Shown: one piece after another, positions 58,266 to 64,000 of the stretch
Position numbering within the stretch: position 1 is the stretch's first letter
Layout of the letters: every line of letters begins with the position of its first letter
DNA from: Methylomonas sp.
GTDB lineage: Bacteria; Pseudomonadota; Gammaproteobacteria; Methylococcales; Methylomonadaceae
Reading direction: 5' to 3'
Assembly: GCA_002928965.1 (NCBI GenBank)
Contig: PERU01000015.1
Span: 1-64,000, forward strand
DNA: 64,000 bases
Translations under genes and position numbers: made by a program
The notes under the pieces: generated by a model
The model's input: the letters and a program-made list of their open reading frames with translations, nothing else
What the model was told of the DNA's origin: nothing
Database searches by the model: none

Positions 58266-60632
58266 TTACTGGCTGGCTTGATAGCGGTTGACAAATTGCT
58301 CGAAAGCCTTGGCGTCCAGTGCTTTGCTGGTGTAATAGCCCTGATAATAATCGCAGTGTCGGCTGCGCAAAAAAGCCATTTGTTCGGCGGTTTCCACGCC
58401 TTCGGCTATCACTTGCATGCGCAAATTTTTGGCCATCGCTATGATGGTGGCGGTAATTTCCATATCGTCGGTATCTTTTGGAATATCATCAATAAAGCTT
58501 TTATCGATTTTCAATACATCCAGTGGAAAGGCTTTCAGATAAGCCAGGGATGAATAGCCGGTACCGAAGTCATCGATAGCCAAATGCACGCCAAATGCGT
58601 GCAGACGATTTAAAATATCGATGGCTTCCTTTTCGCGTTTCATCAGTGCGCTTTCGGTAAGCTCCAATTCCAGATAGCGTGCCGGAAAGCCGGTTTCAGC
58701 CAATGTTTGCATGACAATTTCGCAAATATCATTATGTAAAAACTGTTGCGGTGACAGGTTTACCGCGATGCGTATCGGCTGATAGCCTTGGTCCAGCCAC
58801 TGTTTGCCCTGGCGGCAGGCTTCTTTCAGCACCCAACTGCCAATCAGATTGATTAAACCGGTTTCTTCAGCGATGGGTATAAATTTGTTGGGTAGGATTA
58901 GCTCACCTGCGGTGGTTTGCCAGCGCAGCAATGCTTCAGCGCCGATGATTTCACCGGTGGCGATTTTGAATTGCGGTTGATAAAACACCCGTAATTCATT
59001 TTTCGCGATAGCTTGCCGTAACTTAAATTCGACTTGGATTCGCTCGCGGGCGGCGATGGTCAGATCTTCGGAAAAGTATTTAAAACAGTTACGGCCCTCG
59101 TTCTTGGCTAAATACAAGGCGGTATCGGCATGTTGGAGCAATTCGGGCGGGGTTGTGCCATGGTCGGGAAATAAGGCGATGCCGATACTGACGCCGACTC
59201 TGACTTCATTGCCGGTTGACAGTATCCAGGAATCATTGATGGCTGTGATAATTTCGCTGGCAACACGAGCTGCCGATTCCGGATGTGCCATTTCTTCCAG
59301 CAAAACCACAAATTCATCCCCGCCCAAACGGCAAACGGTATCAGCCGCTCTTAGTCTTGCAGACAGTCTGCCGGCCACCAGTTGCAATAAATCGTCACCC
59401 GCCAAATGACCGAGGCTGTCATTGATGTCCTTGAAGCGATCCAGATCCATCATCAAAACCGCCAGGGGTTTGTCTTGACGTTGGGCTTGATCAATGCTGT
59501 GTTGCATGCGAGACATCAACAAGACGCGATTCGGTAGTTTGGTCAATGGGTCGTGATGGGCTAAAAACTCCAATTCCTGCTCGGAGGCTTTGAGATTGGA
59601 AATATCGGCAAACACCGCCACGAAATGGTTGATATCGCCTGATGGTTCTTTTACTGTACTGATGCTCAATAGTTCCGGATACACCTCGCCATTCTTGCGG
59701 CGGTTCCAGATTTCCCCTTGCCAATGGCCGGTAGTGGTAATGTCTTCCCACATGGCGCAATAAAAATCCTGCCCATGTCGGCCCGAGCGAAGCAGACTGG
59801 CCGATTGACCCACAGATTCAAACTGACTGTAACCGGTAATTTCGCTGAAAGCCCGATTAACGCGTTGAATGCGGCCTTGGGCATCGGTAATCATCACCCC
59901 TTCGCGGGTGGTTTCGAATACCGCAGCCGAAAGGCGTAAATGGTCTTCGTTACGTTTGATTTCGGTAATGTCGGTGACAGTCCCGATGTAGCCCAGCAGG
60001 TTGCCATTGCCGTCGTATTCAGCCGAGGCGCGGCAGACCACCCAATGCACCGGACCGTTTCGGTGTTGAAAACGAAACTGACTATTGAAAGGGGTATGAG
60101 TGTTGAGGGTTAATTTCCATTCGTCGGACACTCGCTGCTGGTCATCGATATAAATCGCATCTTTCCAGCGGTTTTCCCGCACATCTTCATCGGACATGCC
60201 GGTGATAGGCTGCCAACGTTGGTTGACATACTCGCAGTGGCCTTTGGCATCGGTCTTAAAAATACCCACCGGCGCTAAACGTGCCAGTGTTTCGAACAGG
60301 GTTTCACTTTGTTGCAGAGCAATTTCAGCGTGTTTACGTGAGGTTATGTCGTGCAGGCCGATCACGTAAGCGGGGGCATTTTCCCATTCAAAAGGCGCAG
60401 AGCGCATTTCAGCCCAGGCAAAGCCACTGGGTCTGATCAGGTTGATGTCTTGCGGTAAGTTGGTGCCGGTGGTGATTGGAATTGCCAGCGATTGGCCGAC
60501 GATGTTAGGCCGTTCCAATAATAATTCTGCGCTGCGATTGGCATATAGAACAATGCCCTGCAAATCGACCACCAAAATTCCATCAGTGATGGTATCCAGT
60601 ATTAAACTCAGTCGTTGCAGGGTATCAGACAT
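58266..60632 (-). CDS. PAS-PAS-PAS-GGDEF-EAL cyclic-di-GMP enzyme
   Basis: The 788-residue protein has three PAS domains (about 1-115, 116-235 and 236-360, with PAC-like ends such as YIGTVTDITEIKRNE and FVAVFADISNLKAS), a GGDEF domain with the intact RLGGDEFVVLLE and an inhibitory RAAD five residues before it, and an EAL domain with GAEALLRW and AIDDFGTGYSSLAYLKAFPL. It can in principle make and break c-di-GMP. No membrane helix is seen, so sensing is cytoplasmic. It starts 15 bases after the REC-KaiB gene in the same direction, so it is probably the output enzyme of that operon. Confidence 0.93.
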   Translation of the reverse strand: MSDTLQRLSLILDTITDGILVVDLQGIVLYANRSAELLLERPNIVGQSLAIPITTGTNLPQDINLIRPSGFAWAEMRSAPFEWENAPAYVIGLHDITSRKHAEIALQQSETLFETLARLAPVGIFKTDAKGHCEYVNQRWQPITGMSDEDVRENRWKDAIYIDDQQRVSDEWKLTLNTHTPFNSQFRFQHRNGPVHWVVCRASAEYDGNGNLLGYIGTVTDITEIKRNEDHLRLSAAVFETTREGVMITDAQGRIQRVNRAFSEITGYSQFESVGQSASLLRSGRHGQDFYCAMWEDITTTGHWQGEIWNRRKNGEVYPELLSISTVKEPSGDINHFVAVFADISNLKASEQELEFLAHHDPLTKLPNRVLLMSRMQHSIDQAQRQDKPLAVLMMDLDRFKDINDSLGHLAGDDLLQLVAGRLSARLRAADTVCRLGGDEFVVLLEEMAHPESAARVASEIITAINDSWILSTGNEVRVGVSIGIALFPDHGTTPPELLQHADTALYLAKNEGRNCFKYFSEDLTIAARERIQVEFKLRQAIAKNELRVFYQPQFKIATGEIIGAEALLRWQTTAGELILPNKFIPIAEETGLINLIGSWVLKEACRQGKQWLDQGYQPIRIAVNLSPQQFLHNDICEIVMQTLAETGFPARYLELELTESALMKREKEAIDILNRLHAFGVHLAIDDFGTGYSSLAYLKAFPLDVLKIDKSFIDDIPKDTDDMEITATIIAMAKNLRMQVIAEGVETAEQMAFLRSRHCDYYQGYYTSKALDAKAFEQFVNRYQASQ

Positions 60633-60647
60633 CGATTTTGATGTTCA

Positions 60648-61349
60648 TTAAATAATGATGGTTTGTACACCGGTACCGTTGGTTTGTGTGCTGATTGCTG
60701 CCATCACGGATGACATGCGCGACAAGTCACCCAATAATTTTAAAACCGGCTCCGGAATATCGCGTACCAGCATCGGAGTGGCAAATATTTCCTTTTCCAG
60801 CGCTTTTTCCGGCATGCCCAATACTTCAATCACATCGAATACCCAATGCCCCGGCTCATAAATGCCGGCCAACAAGGCGCTGATTTGCTCCACCATACGG
60901 CGTGTTTCCTGATTCAAGGACACTACATACAAGGTGAGTACCAATTTGTGGTGATTGGCGCGTCTGGCTTCTTGGGTTTTGGCCACATCCACGACTTGGG
61001 CGATATTGCGGATTTGGGCGGCGGAGAGCGGTTTGCTGGCCAACTCAAAATTCAAGCCTTCGTCATGCGCATTCTTGAGTTGACCCATAAACTCGGCGGC
61101 AAAAGCGGTGACAATGTAGATATTCAGGTCTTGATCAATGGCCTTCAGCCGGCGAAGCGTTTCAACCCCGTCTATGCCGGGCATGCGAAGGTCCAGAAAA
61201 ATCAGATCGGGACGACTCTGTTTGACCATTTCAATGCCATCCAGGCCGTTTTCAGCTTCTCTGACAGCATAGCCTTCTTCTTCCAGAATCAGTTTGAACG
61301 CTCCTCTGACAGCGGGATCATCGTCTATGACCAAAATAGTGCTCAACAT
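60648..61349 (-). CDS. Response-regulator receiver fused to a KaiB-like domain
   Basis: The 233-residue protein has a full receiver domain (1-120): acidic Asp9-11, phospho-acceptor Asp53 in IFLDLRMPG, Thr81 and Lys106 in ASKPLS. Residues about 135-210 match the thioredoxin-like KaiB family: LVLTLYVVSLNQETRRMVEQ, FDVIEVLGMPEKALEKEIFA and the highly KaiB-like ATPMLVRDIPEPVLKLLGDL. In cyanobacteria KaiB binds KaiC and displaces SasA, whose sensor domain is also KaiB-like. No kaiA or kaiC is in the window. The gene lies between a giant histidine kinase and a GGDEF-EAL enzyme, suggesting a phosphorelay-to-c-di-GMP switch. Confidence 0.88.
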   Translation of the reverse strand: MLSTILVIDDDPAVRGAFKLILEEEGYAVREAENGLDGIEMVKQSRPDLIFLDLRMPGIDGVETLRRLKAIDQDLNIYIVTAFAAEFMGQLKNAHDEGLNFELASKPLSAAQIRNIAQVVDVAKTQEARRANHHKLVLTLYVVSLNQETRRMVEQISALLAGIYEPGHWVFDVIEVLGMPEKALEKEIFATPMLVRDIPEPVLKLLGDLSRMSSVMAAISTQTNGTGVQTIII

Positions 61350-61409
61350 GATTGTTTACTCTTCATAAAATCAGACAATAGAGGGTAATTATCCAGTGAA
61401 TGTGCCGAT

Positions 61410-64000
61410 TTAGCTATCAGAAATATGAAAACTCAGGCGAATGTGGCAGCCTGCGTTTACCGGGCTTTCCAGGTTAATTGAGCCGCCGCAATCCTGAATC
61501 AGCCGACGTGTTACCGATAAGCCCAAGCCAGTACCTTTACCCGGTGCCTTAGTGGTAAAAAATGGATCGAACATGCGTGATTGAATCTCCTGGCTGACCC
61601 CTGGACCATTGTCGATGATGGATACTTCCAGGATATTGTTGATGATCGCAGTGGTGATGCGTATTTCTGGCGATTCAGTATCGCTGAGCGCATCGCGGGC
61701 ATTGATCAGCAAGTTCACTAAAATCTGTTGCAGGCTTTCAGCCGAGCAACTGATTTCAGGCAGGTTGGTCGGAATATCTGTGTTGAGGGTGATGGCGTAT
61801 TTACGCAGTTCGCCTTCCAGCAACAGCAGGGTTTGTTCCAATACATCGTTGAAGGCGCAATGCCCCACGCTGACCGTTTTATTCCGCATGAACACCAGCA
61901 TATTGGACACGATTTTTTTGATTCGCAAAATTTGTTGCAAGGCTTGCTCAAGAATCTGTTTGGATTTGGCATCCTCGGTACGATCGGCTACAAATTCCAC
62001 GAAATTCATCACCCCCATCAGCGGATTATTGATTTCATGGGCTACGCCGCCGACCAGAGTGCCTATGGCGGACAGTTTTTCCATTTGCAGCATATGCTCC
62101 TGATTTTCTTGTAATTGCAGGTAAGCCAGTCGGGTCTGTTCCAATAACTGGGCATTTTCCAGAGAAATAGACGCTTGCGCCGTCAATAATTCGGTCATGC
62201 TGATCTTTTCCGGAGTGAATACACCTTCCGATAATCGATTCTCCAAATACAGCAAGCCAAAAAATTCGGATTGTTTGATGATGGGCAGGCACAGAACCGA
62301 GCGTAGTTTTAAGGTTTGCACTTCCGGCGCATTTTGAAAATCCCCTTGGTTCATGGCATCGTGCAACACCACTTTGACCTGGGTGCGTTGCACAAAATTG
62401 ACGATGGCGCGACAAATGCCACGGACTTGGTCCAAGGGATAGGCTTGAGATTGCAGGGCTTGCTTTTTACCCACATGATGTTCGGCAGCGATCTGTAATT
62501 CATCACCCTGTTTGATTAACAGATAACCGTGTTGGGCTGCGGAGCTTTCCAATACCACAGCCATGATTTTGCGCATCAATTGACTCAAGTCGATTTCGGC
62601 GGACAGTGCCAATGCCGATTTCATCAGGTAACTGATGTCCATGCTGGGCAAGGTTTCATGGGAAATCGGGCTTCTAGTGCTGCGAGTTGCGGTTTCTCGG
62701 CCCACATAAGGATGGCGTTCCTGCAGTAGATTGTTTTTGGCATCCGCGCGACATACACGATAGTGTCTGCGGGCCTCGCCATAATACAGTTCGGCGTCGC
62801 CGAGCCGATGTTGGCTTAATAAATCGGCCAGTGCTTCGTAAATATGGCCGGTTAATAAGCCATAGTTTTCGGCTTGAGCCAGCGCTACTGCATCGAGATA
62901 TAAATTTCGTGCCTCCCGCAAGTAACCCTGCTTGGCAGCGATTTCCGCATGAATCAGCGCCACATAGGGCTTCAATAACGGTCCAAGTTTGGCCCAGATT
63001 TCCAGTTTGTCCAGCAAGGGATTGATTTCAATATCAATCTCCGGCCAATCCAGTTGTTCAGGCTGGCGAAGGCGATTGAGTATTTTAAATGCATACCAGA
63101 GCCGCTTCAGCACATTGTCAGTCAAGCCATGCAGGTAATGTTCCACTTGTTGCAGAGACTGATCGGCTTTTTGATAGTTGCCCATAAAATATTCGGCAAA
63201 GCCCAGCAAGGCAAAATAACTGCCTGAAGCTGCAACATAATTGTTATTTGCCCAATTTTGCAATGTTGCAGTCATGTTCACTGGCTGATAATCCAGTTTC
63301 ATGGGTTGTACCCAGCCGGCTAAAACTGCTTCTGCAAGCCCCACTGAAAACGACAATTGATTTTTGCGGGAAAACTGCAGGCACTCCTCTGCGGTTTCTT
63401 CTACCCAGCGCAGATTTTTACCTTGTATCAATAAGTTCCACATCAAAGGTCCATAAGACAAGCCGGCATTGTATAAGTCACCGCAATTTTTGCCGCACTG
63501 AATCGCTTTATGTGCATAGTCGACAATCGCGGACGGGTGGCTGCGACTGTGCATATTGCACCAGATAATGCCGTTCATGCCACGCGTCGCACCAAAGGTA
63601 TTCGGATATTTGGCGCATAAGTCGTGAGCTAGATCCTCATATTTAAAGGCCTGAGTAAACTGACCGCCTTCCCCCAGGTTAAGGCCCATGATGGAAAACG
63701 AATAAATCACCGATTCGTCCATGCCGCCTTCCAGGCAATGCAGGGTGGATTGAGCGGCGGAAAGGTATAACTGCGGGACCAGTCCACACATGTATAAATC
63801 GGGAATCAATTCGCTATAAATTGCCAGCTCGATTTTGCTTTTACGCTCCTGGGTAAACGGCATGGTCAGTATGCTATGCCAGACATCGCCTTGCTGACCG
63901 ATGTGTTCCATGGCAGTCTGCATGCGCTGATTGGCTAAATCGGCATGTTCGGGGATGGATTTGTCAAAGTAGGCCAGACCGCGATTGGCAGTGAGGATGG
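61410..64000 (-). CDS. Very large multidomain histidine kinase, C-terminal part (cut by the window edge)
   Basis: The frame is open to the window edge, so the start lies outside; the internal Met at 63923 is not the start. The visible part (over 860 residues) has TPR-like helical repeats typical of the region after the AAA-type ATPase domain in PknB/AAA/GAF/kinase giants. A GAF domain follows (about 430-595 counted from that Met; LRSVLCLPIIKQSEFFGLLY). Then come a HisKA domain with the phospho-His in GGVAHEINNPL and a catalytic domain with N-box LVNLLINARDA, G1 IIDNGPGVS, F-box DPFFTTKAPGKG and G2 TGLGLSVTRR. All kinase residues are intact. It ends 60 bases before the REC-KaiB gene, its probable partner. 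Confidence 0.88.
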   Translation of the reverse strand, partial: ILTANRGLAYFDKSIPEHADLANQRMQTAMEHIGQQGDVWHSILTMPFTQERKSKIELAIYSELIPDLYMCGLVPQLYLSAAQSTLHCLEGGMDESVIYSFSIMGLNLGEGGQFTQAFKYEDLAHDLCAKYPNTFGATRGMNGIIWCNMHSRSHPSAIVDYAHKAIQCGKNCGDLYNAGLSYGPLMWNLLIQGKNLRWVEETAEECLQFSRKNQLSFSVGLAEAVLAGWVQPMKLDYQPVNMTATLQNWANNNYVAASGSYFALLGFAEYFMGNYQKADQSLQQVEHYLHGLTDNVLKRLWYAFKILNRLRQPEQLDWPEIDIEINPLLDKLEIWAKLGPLLKPYVALIHAEIAAKQGYLREARNLYLDAVALAQAENYGLLTGHIYEALADLLSQHRLGDAELYYGEARRHYRVCRADAKNNLLQERHPYVGRETATRSTRSPISHETLPSMDISYLMKSALALSAEIDLSQLMRKIMAVVLESSAAQHGYLLIKQGDELQIAAEHHVGKKQALQSQAYPLDQVRGICRAIVNFVQRTQVKVVLHDAMNQGDFQNAPEVQTLKLRSVLCLPIIKQSEFFGLLYLENRLSEGVFTPEKISMTELLTAQASISLENAQLLEQTRLAYLQLQENQEHMLQMEKLSAIGTLVGGVAHEINNPLMGVMNFVEFVADRTEDAKSKQILEQALQQILRIKKIVSNMLVFMRNKTVSVGHCAFNDVLEQTLLLLEGELRKYAITLNTDIPTNLPEISCSAESLQQILVNLLINARDALSDTESPEIRITTAIINNILEVSIIDNGPGVSQEIQSRMFDPFFTTKAPGKGTGLGLSVTRRLIQDCGGSINLESPVNAGCHIRLSFHISDS

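Follow-up and report, generated by a model that had tools for sequence, protein, structure and literature searches.

The first 64,000 bases of contig 15 (PERU01000015.1, bases 1-64000; the whole stretch analysed, hereafter the window) of the genome of a methane-oxidising bacterium, Methylomonas sp. (GCA_002928965.1; 4.03 Mb, 99.99% complete), contain an operon in which a KaiB domain is fused to a receiver domain. This fusion, REC-KaiB, lies between a large sensor kinase and a PAS-GGDEF-EAL protein, whose N-terminal PAS domain we call PAS-nt. KaiB is known as a clock protein with KaiC as its partner, and REC-KaiB separates the action of the KaiB fold itself from timekeeping. The operon is real, conserved and unusual, and an earlier note made from the sequence of the window had interpreted it half correctly. 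With somewhat more confidence than doubt, we lean towards a KaiC-free two-component phosphorelay that runs from the kinase to REC-KaiB, from there to PAS-nt, and ends in a GGDEF-EAL protein or a PAS kinase. Our results suggest that a component of a bacterial clock has been recruited into a signalling route of a common kind. Genomes (G), loci (L) and families (f) are given below by our own handles where they have to be told apart.

A receiver joined to a KaiB domain

The receiver (PF00072, residues 5-115) is matched with an E-value of 1.6e-25 and 89.8 bits against a cut-off of 30.2, and KaiB (PF07689, residues 141-212) with 4.3e-8 and 33.2 bits against a cut-off of 27; the KaiB match was also above cut-off in the genome-wide search. 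Both domains exceed their Pfam cut-offs, which bears out the description in the earlier note of a complete receiver joined to a KaiB-like domain. The note had placed KaiB at residues 135-210: comparison with the KaiB profile did give a significant match, but it begins at residue 141. Among 30 aligned REC-KaiB proteins, the receiver residues Asp53 (the phospho-acceptor), Thr81 and Lys106 are invariant, as are PEKAL and TP in the KaiB part. Using a profile of 25 REC-KaiB C-termini, we retrieved solved KaiB chains at an E-value of 3.6e-13 (Legionella KaiB, 4kun, at 1.6e-6), so the KaiB match is not due to chance, and no SasA chain at E-values up to 1.

Two other identities were discarded. A SasA-like sensor is ruled out by the architecture, with KaiB lying C-terminal to a receiver and not N-terminal on a kinase. 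A KaiA3-type protein was rejected because the C-terminal domain is KaiB, not KaiA-like, and the genome has no KaiA match.

The three-gene order is conserved among relatives

All three genes are on the minus strand; 60 bases separate the kinase from REC-KaiB, and 15 bases separate REC-KaiB from the GGDEF-EAL gene. Coordinates, strand and gaps are all as the earlier note had reported. We compared 30 REC-KaiB loci, leaving out L060 (106 amino acids, KaiB without receiver), L070 (same layout as L014) and the receiver-only loci L018 and L019. A same-strand kinase is found directly upstream of REC-KaiB in 27 of the 30. The large kinase is upstream in 25 of them, complete in 24 and cut by the contig end in L015, while L016 and L017 have a different, shorter PAS kinase directly upstream; the kinase of L057 lies 705 bases from REC-KaiB. 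Regarding the downstream side, a gene starting with PAS-nt is present in 29/30 loci (all but L069), at a distance of 657 bases in L066, 160 in L067 and 162 in L068. Synteny of the three genes is thus kept across relatives, with a kinase on one side in 27 loci and a PAS-nt gene on the other in 29. The proposal of the earlier note that a GGDEF-EAL enzyme is the output applies to 20 loci (the gene is shortened in L062) and is not universal, since nine others carry a PAS kinase, mostly with a terminal receiver, or its start where the contig ends (L053). The kinase-type operons (L051-L055, L058, L059, L061 and L063) make up a single clade in the KaiB tree but come from two different families (f1 and f4) within the order, so they may have been transferred horizontally; this is a quick tree of 147 rows by 106 columns, a number of columns flagged as few.

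Besides its REC-KaiB locus, genome G063 has a second operon (L144:3897-9391, G063:C2) in which receiver and KaiB are unfused. It encodes an ETR1_N-PAS kinase, a free receiver, a receiver with a KaiB fragment (one gene joining the first half of KaiB to the receiver), a free KaiB-type protein (42.2 bits by Pfam) and a PAS-nt-PAS-GGDEF-EAL protein. The KaiB of this operon falls together with REC-KaiB in the tree, on a long branch (Shimodaira-Hasegawa-like approximate likelihood ratio test, 99). That the same parts occur fused and unfused speaks for a functional connection of the receiver with KaiB. In two genomes of the genus of the window, G024 and G060 (L176:2736-3038 and L177:7898-8200), the kinase is lost and a decayed REC-KaiB remnant of 100 amino acids is left, followed by an intact PAS-GGDEF-EAL gene.

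PAS-nt is shared by both output types

By Pfam, the third protein of the window has three PAS domains, a GGDEF and an EAL domain, and its GGDEF, RxxD, EAL, DDFGTG, LELTES and EGVE motifs are intact. When all 20 GGDEF-type members were compared with all nine kinase-type members, PAS-nt showed a mean identity of 60.9% (38-70%), and the next 125 residues 22.1%. A smaller comparison (8 of the 20 and 7 of the 9, without L057) gave 59.0% and 22.6%. Judged by sequence conservation, PAS-nt is the element that stays constant across outputs, one that the earlier note had not noticed.

We then scored PAS-nt in 201 genomes of the order Methylococcales with a profile of 15 PAS domains, none of them from a KaiC cluster, and up to 24 candidates per genome. 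Matches of at least 133 bits were found in 38 genomes: 36 of the 37 REC-KaiB carriers and two of the 164 others, which are G024 and G060, with their decayed remnants. The next matches were those of G188 (65.4 bits) and G160 (61.8 bits), and the remaining ones at an E-value of 1e-7 or better reached at most 39 bits. In G188 and G160, PAS-nt adjoins the only two KaiC genes of the sample above the TIGR02655 cut-off, each accompanied by KaiB.

In a second sample of 398 genomes of the phylum, PAS-nt was detected in 25 besides that of the window (E-value 1e-12 or better), and 24 of them also have a KaiB match; the other, G257, has none. At 41 of the 47 PAS-nt places, a KaiB place is no more than 5 kb away (Fisher p 1.7e-29, a value that, like our other Fisher p values, is overstated because the sampled genomes are related). 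As for the other six, two are on KaiB-less contigs of KaiB-positive genomes, three are 5, 8 and 49 kb away from KaiB, and one is in G257. Sixteen of 21 PAS-nt loci, with PAS-nt scores of 47-73 bits, also hold a KaiC of at least 565 bits against the KaiC of G160, here termed clock-type KaiC, and L217 and L218, with lower KaiC scores, have no PAS-nt; these loci were chosen by PAS-nt or KaiB, which makes the split other than a blind test. Among 14 KaiB-KaiC clusters of the order fetched blind to PAS-nt, only that of G160 contains PAS-nt (58.7 bits); the remaining 13, in which KaiC scored 233-324, gave at most 17.5 bits. PAS-nt goes with clock-type KaiC and with REC-KaiB, and not with every KaiB.

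We tentatively propose, with less than even confidence, that PAS-nt serves Pseudomonadota as a dedicated domain for reading KaiB, that it reads the KaiB of clock-type KaiC clusters, and that in Methylococcales the same KaiB-PAS pair was separated from KaiC and came under the control of a histidine kinase through the fusion of KaiB to a receiver. If this is true, PAS-nt is a candidate for the missing Kai output outside cyanobacteria.

In ten clock-type KaiB-KaiC clusters of Pseudomonadota (L201, L202, L205, L207-L210 and L214-L216), the gene immediately upstream of kaiB encodes a receiver protein of 284-309 amino acids, which corresponds to KaiA3 in size and location. We do not call these proteins KaiA3, the 60 best rows of a profile made from ten of them matching its receiver part. 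Nor do we claim a link between them and the receiver of the window: its matches to them are of 16-27 bits, and many other receivers in these clusters score at least as well (up to 50 bits).

REC-KaiB occurs mostly without KaiC

The genome of the window has no TIGR02655 match above cut-off, the best giving 20.4 bits (against 546.25) over 73 positions of a 457-amino-acid frame, and no KaiA match; its single KaiB match is the REC-KaiB gene. PF06745, a broader family, gave four partial matches, each covering 66 to 75 of the 231 positions of its model, and three of the four are marked above cut-off. This family also matches all 14 control genomes, Escherichia coli included, and we took the matches as other RecA-type proteins and not as KaiC.

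KaiB was matched in 63 of the 201 genomes of the order and the REC-KaiB fusion was present in 37, of which 20 (the window included) were assigned by reading the sequence and 17 by KaiB score, frame length and a directly adjacent PAS-nt match. Counting KaiC from 270 bits up, it is found in 34 of the 201 genomes and in nine of the 37 carriers, which leaves 28 carriers without full-length KaiC; full-length-looking matches of 147-168 bits would add no carrier. REC-KaiB and KaiC showed no significant association in this sample (Fisher p 0.22). Having seen no kaiC in the window, the earlier note had proposed a clock part used in a separate phosphorelay, and both the whole-genome search for kaiC and kaiA, which found neither, and the 28 carriers agree with it.

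Outside the order, 398 genomes of the phylum and 369 of the class were scanned with the KaiB profile; among the places read, comparison with the receiver of the window revealed no open reading frame with REC and KaiB, a check that covers part of the scanned KaiB places and the phylum Pseudomonadota. Eight of the longer KaiB reading frames from outside the order are KaiB alone by Pfam. A search of named genome contigs gave 13 loci, 11 of them REC-KaiB, all from Methylomonas or proteobacterial assemblies. The laboratory strain Methylomonas LW13 also carries the operon (L012). Finally, in the seven plasmid records examined out of 15 that match KaiB, the best PAS-nt score was 26.5 bits and no KaiB reading frame exceeded 153 amino acids.

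The KaiB domain and the fold-switch question

Residues K57, G88 and D90 of KaiB have been suggested to regulate fold switching (PMC5520375, in excerpt). In the 28 KaiB domains of the REC-KaiB clade, the K57 place is D, E or N in all, the G88 place is A in 21 and S, T, I or V in the others, and the D90 place is T in 27 and S in the remaining one, so that none keeps any of the three residues. Among 119 other KaiB sequences, Gly is found at the G88 place in 89, Asp at the D90 place in 78 and Lys at the K57 place in only 29, which is why the K57 place says little. In our alignments, the fold-switch-stabilised KaiB constructs 5jwo and 5jyt have Ala at the G88 place.

An AlphaFold2 model of the KaiB domain built from 80 KaiB-family rows had a mean predicted local distance difference test (pLDDT) score of 86.2 and a predicted template modelling score of 0.80. 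Its order of elements, b-a-b-a-b-b-a-b, is the thioredoxin-like topology of the fold-switched type plus an extra strand. The first 12 rows of a Foldseek search with this model were KaiB or SasA entries, and the VIA-align Z-scores were 12.0 (5jwr), 11.6 (4kun) and, with many thioredoxins, about 10; in the model, the fold class is clear and the margin over thioredoxins small. The full-length model, made from 30 REC-KaiB rows only, has 50 listed fold matches that are receiver-containing proteins, its KaiB half being too weakly modelled for use.

Sequence and model together make a stable thioredoxin-like domain of the fold-switched type likelier than a fold switcher. Two points count against relying on the models here: the full-length one leaves the C-terminal half of KaiB under a pLDDT of 55, and AlphaFold2 with a broad alignment favours the fold-switched state even for ground-state KaiB (PMC10808063, in excerpt), a bias that makes the domain model weak evidence on the resting fold. 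The idea of the earlier note that the kinase sets the fold state of KaiB through the phosphorylated receiver finds no support, because K57, G88 and D90 are replaced in 28/28 domains; the domain is, besides, modelled in the fold-switched topology.

The large sensor kinase and the features of the window

The complete kinase gene encodes 1710 amino acids (L006:6411-11543). The earlier note had announced a giant histidine kinase; a kinase it is, with only its 3' part inside the window. Pfam matches are Pkinase, AAA_16, TPR, GAF, HisKA and HATPase, and the HisKA histidine is His1502, within an HEINNP motif. Active Ser/Thr kinases carry an HRD catalytic motif. The Ser/Thr-kinase-like domain of the large kinase has HGG at this place in every one of the 24 distinct genes (25 rows if L070 is counted), which probably makes it a pseudokinase. 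Cyanobacteria and other organisms are known to have large histidine kinases that begin with a Ser/Thr-kinase-like, AAA and GAF part; the first gene of the operon has a like domain order and differs in reading HGG instead of HRD. A 2044-amino-acid protein (L137:1654-7788, G070:C11), encoded beside a KaiC-KaiB-KaiB cluster, has a similar kinase-like/AAA/TPR front and a GGDEF-EAL end. The features of the operon are collected in Table 1.

Table 1. Features of the REC-KaiB operon in the window, with the basis of each assignment
Feature	Position	Strand	Basis and remarks
Sensor kinase gene, 3' part	61410..64000	-	Pfam matches; gene continues past the window to contig position 66542
REC-KaiB fusion, 233 amino acids, without cysteine	60648..61349	-	Pfam and sequence
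Receiver domain, residues 5-115	61005..61337	-	Pfam; Asp53, Thr81 and Lys106 invariant in 30 sequences
KaiB domain, residues 141-212	60714..60929	-	PF07689 match
PAS-PAS-PAS-GGDEF-EAL protein, 788 amino acids	58266..60632	-	Pfam and intact motifs
PAS-nt, N-terminal PAS of the third gene, residues 1-105	60318..60632	-	Conserved across output types; mostly beside KaiB genes in sampled Pseudomonadota

A proposed phosphorelay and its alternatives

From the operon, the fusion and the genomic association, we propose that the large sensor kinase would phosphorylate Asp53 of REC-KaiB, and that the state of the receiver would decide whether the attached KaiB, a putatively stable, thioredoxin-like, protein-binding domain judging from sequence and model, docks on the PAS-nt of the neighbouring protein. 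Docking would change the activity of the GGDEF-EAL enzyme, and thus the level of cyclic di-GMP, in operons of the type of the window, and that of the PAS kinase instead in some relatives, whose operons hold two kinases.

Several observations, together with the overstated p values, weigh against this scheme. The tie between PAS-nt and KaiB is genomic, and shared inheritance of an operon could yield it with no contact between the proteins. Ten of the 34 KaiB genomes in the phylum sample have no PAS-nt match, and 13 of the 14 clusters fetched blind have no PAS-nt, so that PAS-nt is not a general partner of KaiB. Carrier G130 has no PAS-nt gene, and in L056 and L062 no kinase adjoins REC-KaiB. In L057, the most divergent member, PAS-nt is only 39.9% identical to the kinase type, against 19.5% beyond it. 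Moreover, the swap of outputs behind PAS-nt was probably one event, since in the KaiB tree all kinase-type members fall into a single clade.

One could argue that the KaiB domain acts back on the kinase, on its AAA/TPR part or on HisKA, as an adaptor or feedback inhibitor, and that PAS-nt is linked to it by nothing but the shared operon. The AAA_16 and TPR matches of the kinase are a make-up suited to protein binding, and in G024 and G060 the kinase was lost and REC-KaiB decayed together, which ties the two to each other, while PAS-GGDEF-EAL was kept. We nevertheless consider this unlikely: the kinase upstream is not always of one kind (L016 and L017 have a PAS kinase, and the split operon of G063 has one of the ETR1_N-PAS type) and PAS-nt stays, and PAS-nt adjoins KaiB also in clusters where no such large kinase was seen. 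REC-KaiB could also be a KaiC partner after all, with KaiC elsewhere or missed and the operon a clock accessory, as the nine carriers with full-length KaiC and the presence of a solved KaiC-bound KaiB among the best fold matches would allow. The 28 carriers without it, the practically complete genome of the window included, and the lack of a significant association in the order make this very improbable.

Regarding the way in which the receiver would act, a true KaiB fold switch driven by phosphorylation is in keeping with the membership of the domain in the KaiB family and with a full-length model that is undecided in the C-terminal half of KaiB, and we still give it a low probability in view of the three replaced residues, the Ala that 5jwo and 5jyt share with 21 of the 28 domains, and the fold-switched type of the domain model. 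A redox thioredoxin, suggested by the thioredoxins that the domain model also matches (Z about 10), has next to no chance of being the right identity and was rejected because the whole protein has no cysteine; besides, the C-terminal profile finds KaiB at 3.6e-13 and a thioredoxin only at 0.35. The phosphorelay through PAS-nt is the reading that we prefer.

Comparison with known systems

Among the titles and abstract beginnings of the best-ranked open papers, a set in which subscription papers are mostly not included, we found no earlier description of a REC-KaiB fusion, and no paper of the open literature pairing a KaiB domain with a response regulator. Within that scope, the use of KaiB as the output domain of a response regulator and its KaiC-free use appear new, as does its pairing with PAS-nt, which may be more general.

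The closest parallel in design is KaiA3 of Synechocystis, a receiver-KaiA chimera encoded beside kaiB3 (PMC11372060, in excerpt). Both are phosphorylatable receivers fused to a Kai-type domain and encoded next to a Kai gene; in KaiA3, however, REC is fused to a KaiA-like domain and the partners are KaiB3 and KaiC3, whereas the protein of the window joins REC to KaiB and most of its carriers have no KaiC. With canonical KaiB (PF07689), REC-KaiB shares a match above the Pfam cut-off, mostly kept ATPxL and GDLS regions and the best sequence and fold matches in the PDB. It differs in forming its own long-branch clade, in its replaced fold-switch residues, in the REC fusion, in the extra C-terminal strand of the model and in the absence of KaiC from the genome of the window.

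SasA is a kinase with a KaiB-like domain at its N-terminus. It resembles REC-KaiB in having a KaiB-type thioredoxin-like domain within a two-component protein, but in REC-KaiB this domain is the output of a receiver. SasA binds KaiC through its KaiB-like domain (PMC5520375, in excerpt). The same excerpt describes an elongated cyanobacterial KaiB1 of about 250 amino acids which, like REC-KaiB, has a long N-terminal extension; that of KaiB1 is given there as having no identified domain and no relatives outside cyanobacteria, whereas that of REC-KaiB is a receiver.

It has been concluded that non-cyanobacterial Kai systems have to rely on an output route unlike that of Synechococcus (PMC5520375, in excerpt), and the association of PAS-nt with KaiB provides a concrete candidate for their signal output. 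In such organisms, kaiC-kaiB clusters followed by a histidine kinase or a GGDEF/EAL gene have been described (PMC3164672, in excerpt), and Rhodopseudomonas has kaiC-kaiB with a PAS kinase (PMC4794148, in excerpt). The same two output classes stand beside KaiB in the REC-KaiB operon, which differs from these clusters in having no KaiC, a KaiB fused to REC and a kinase upstream.

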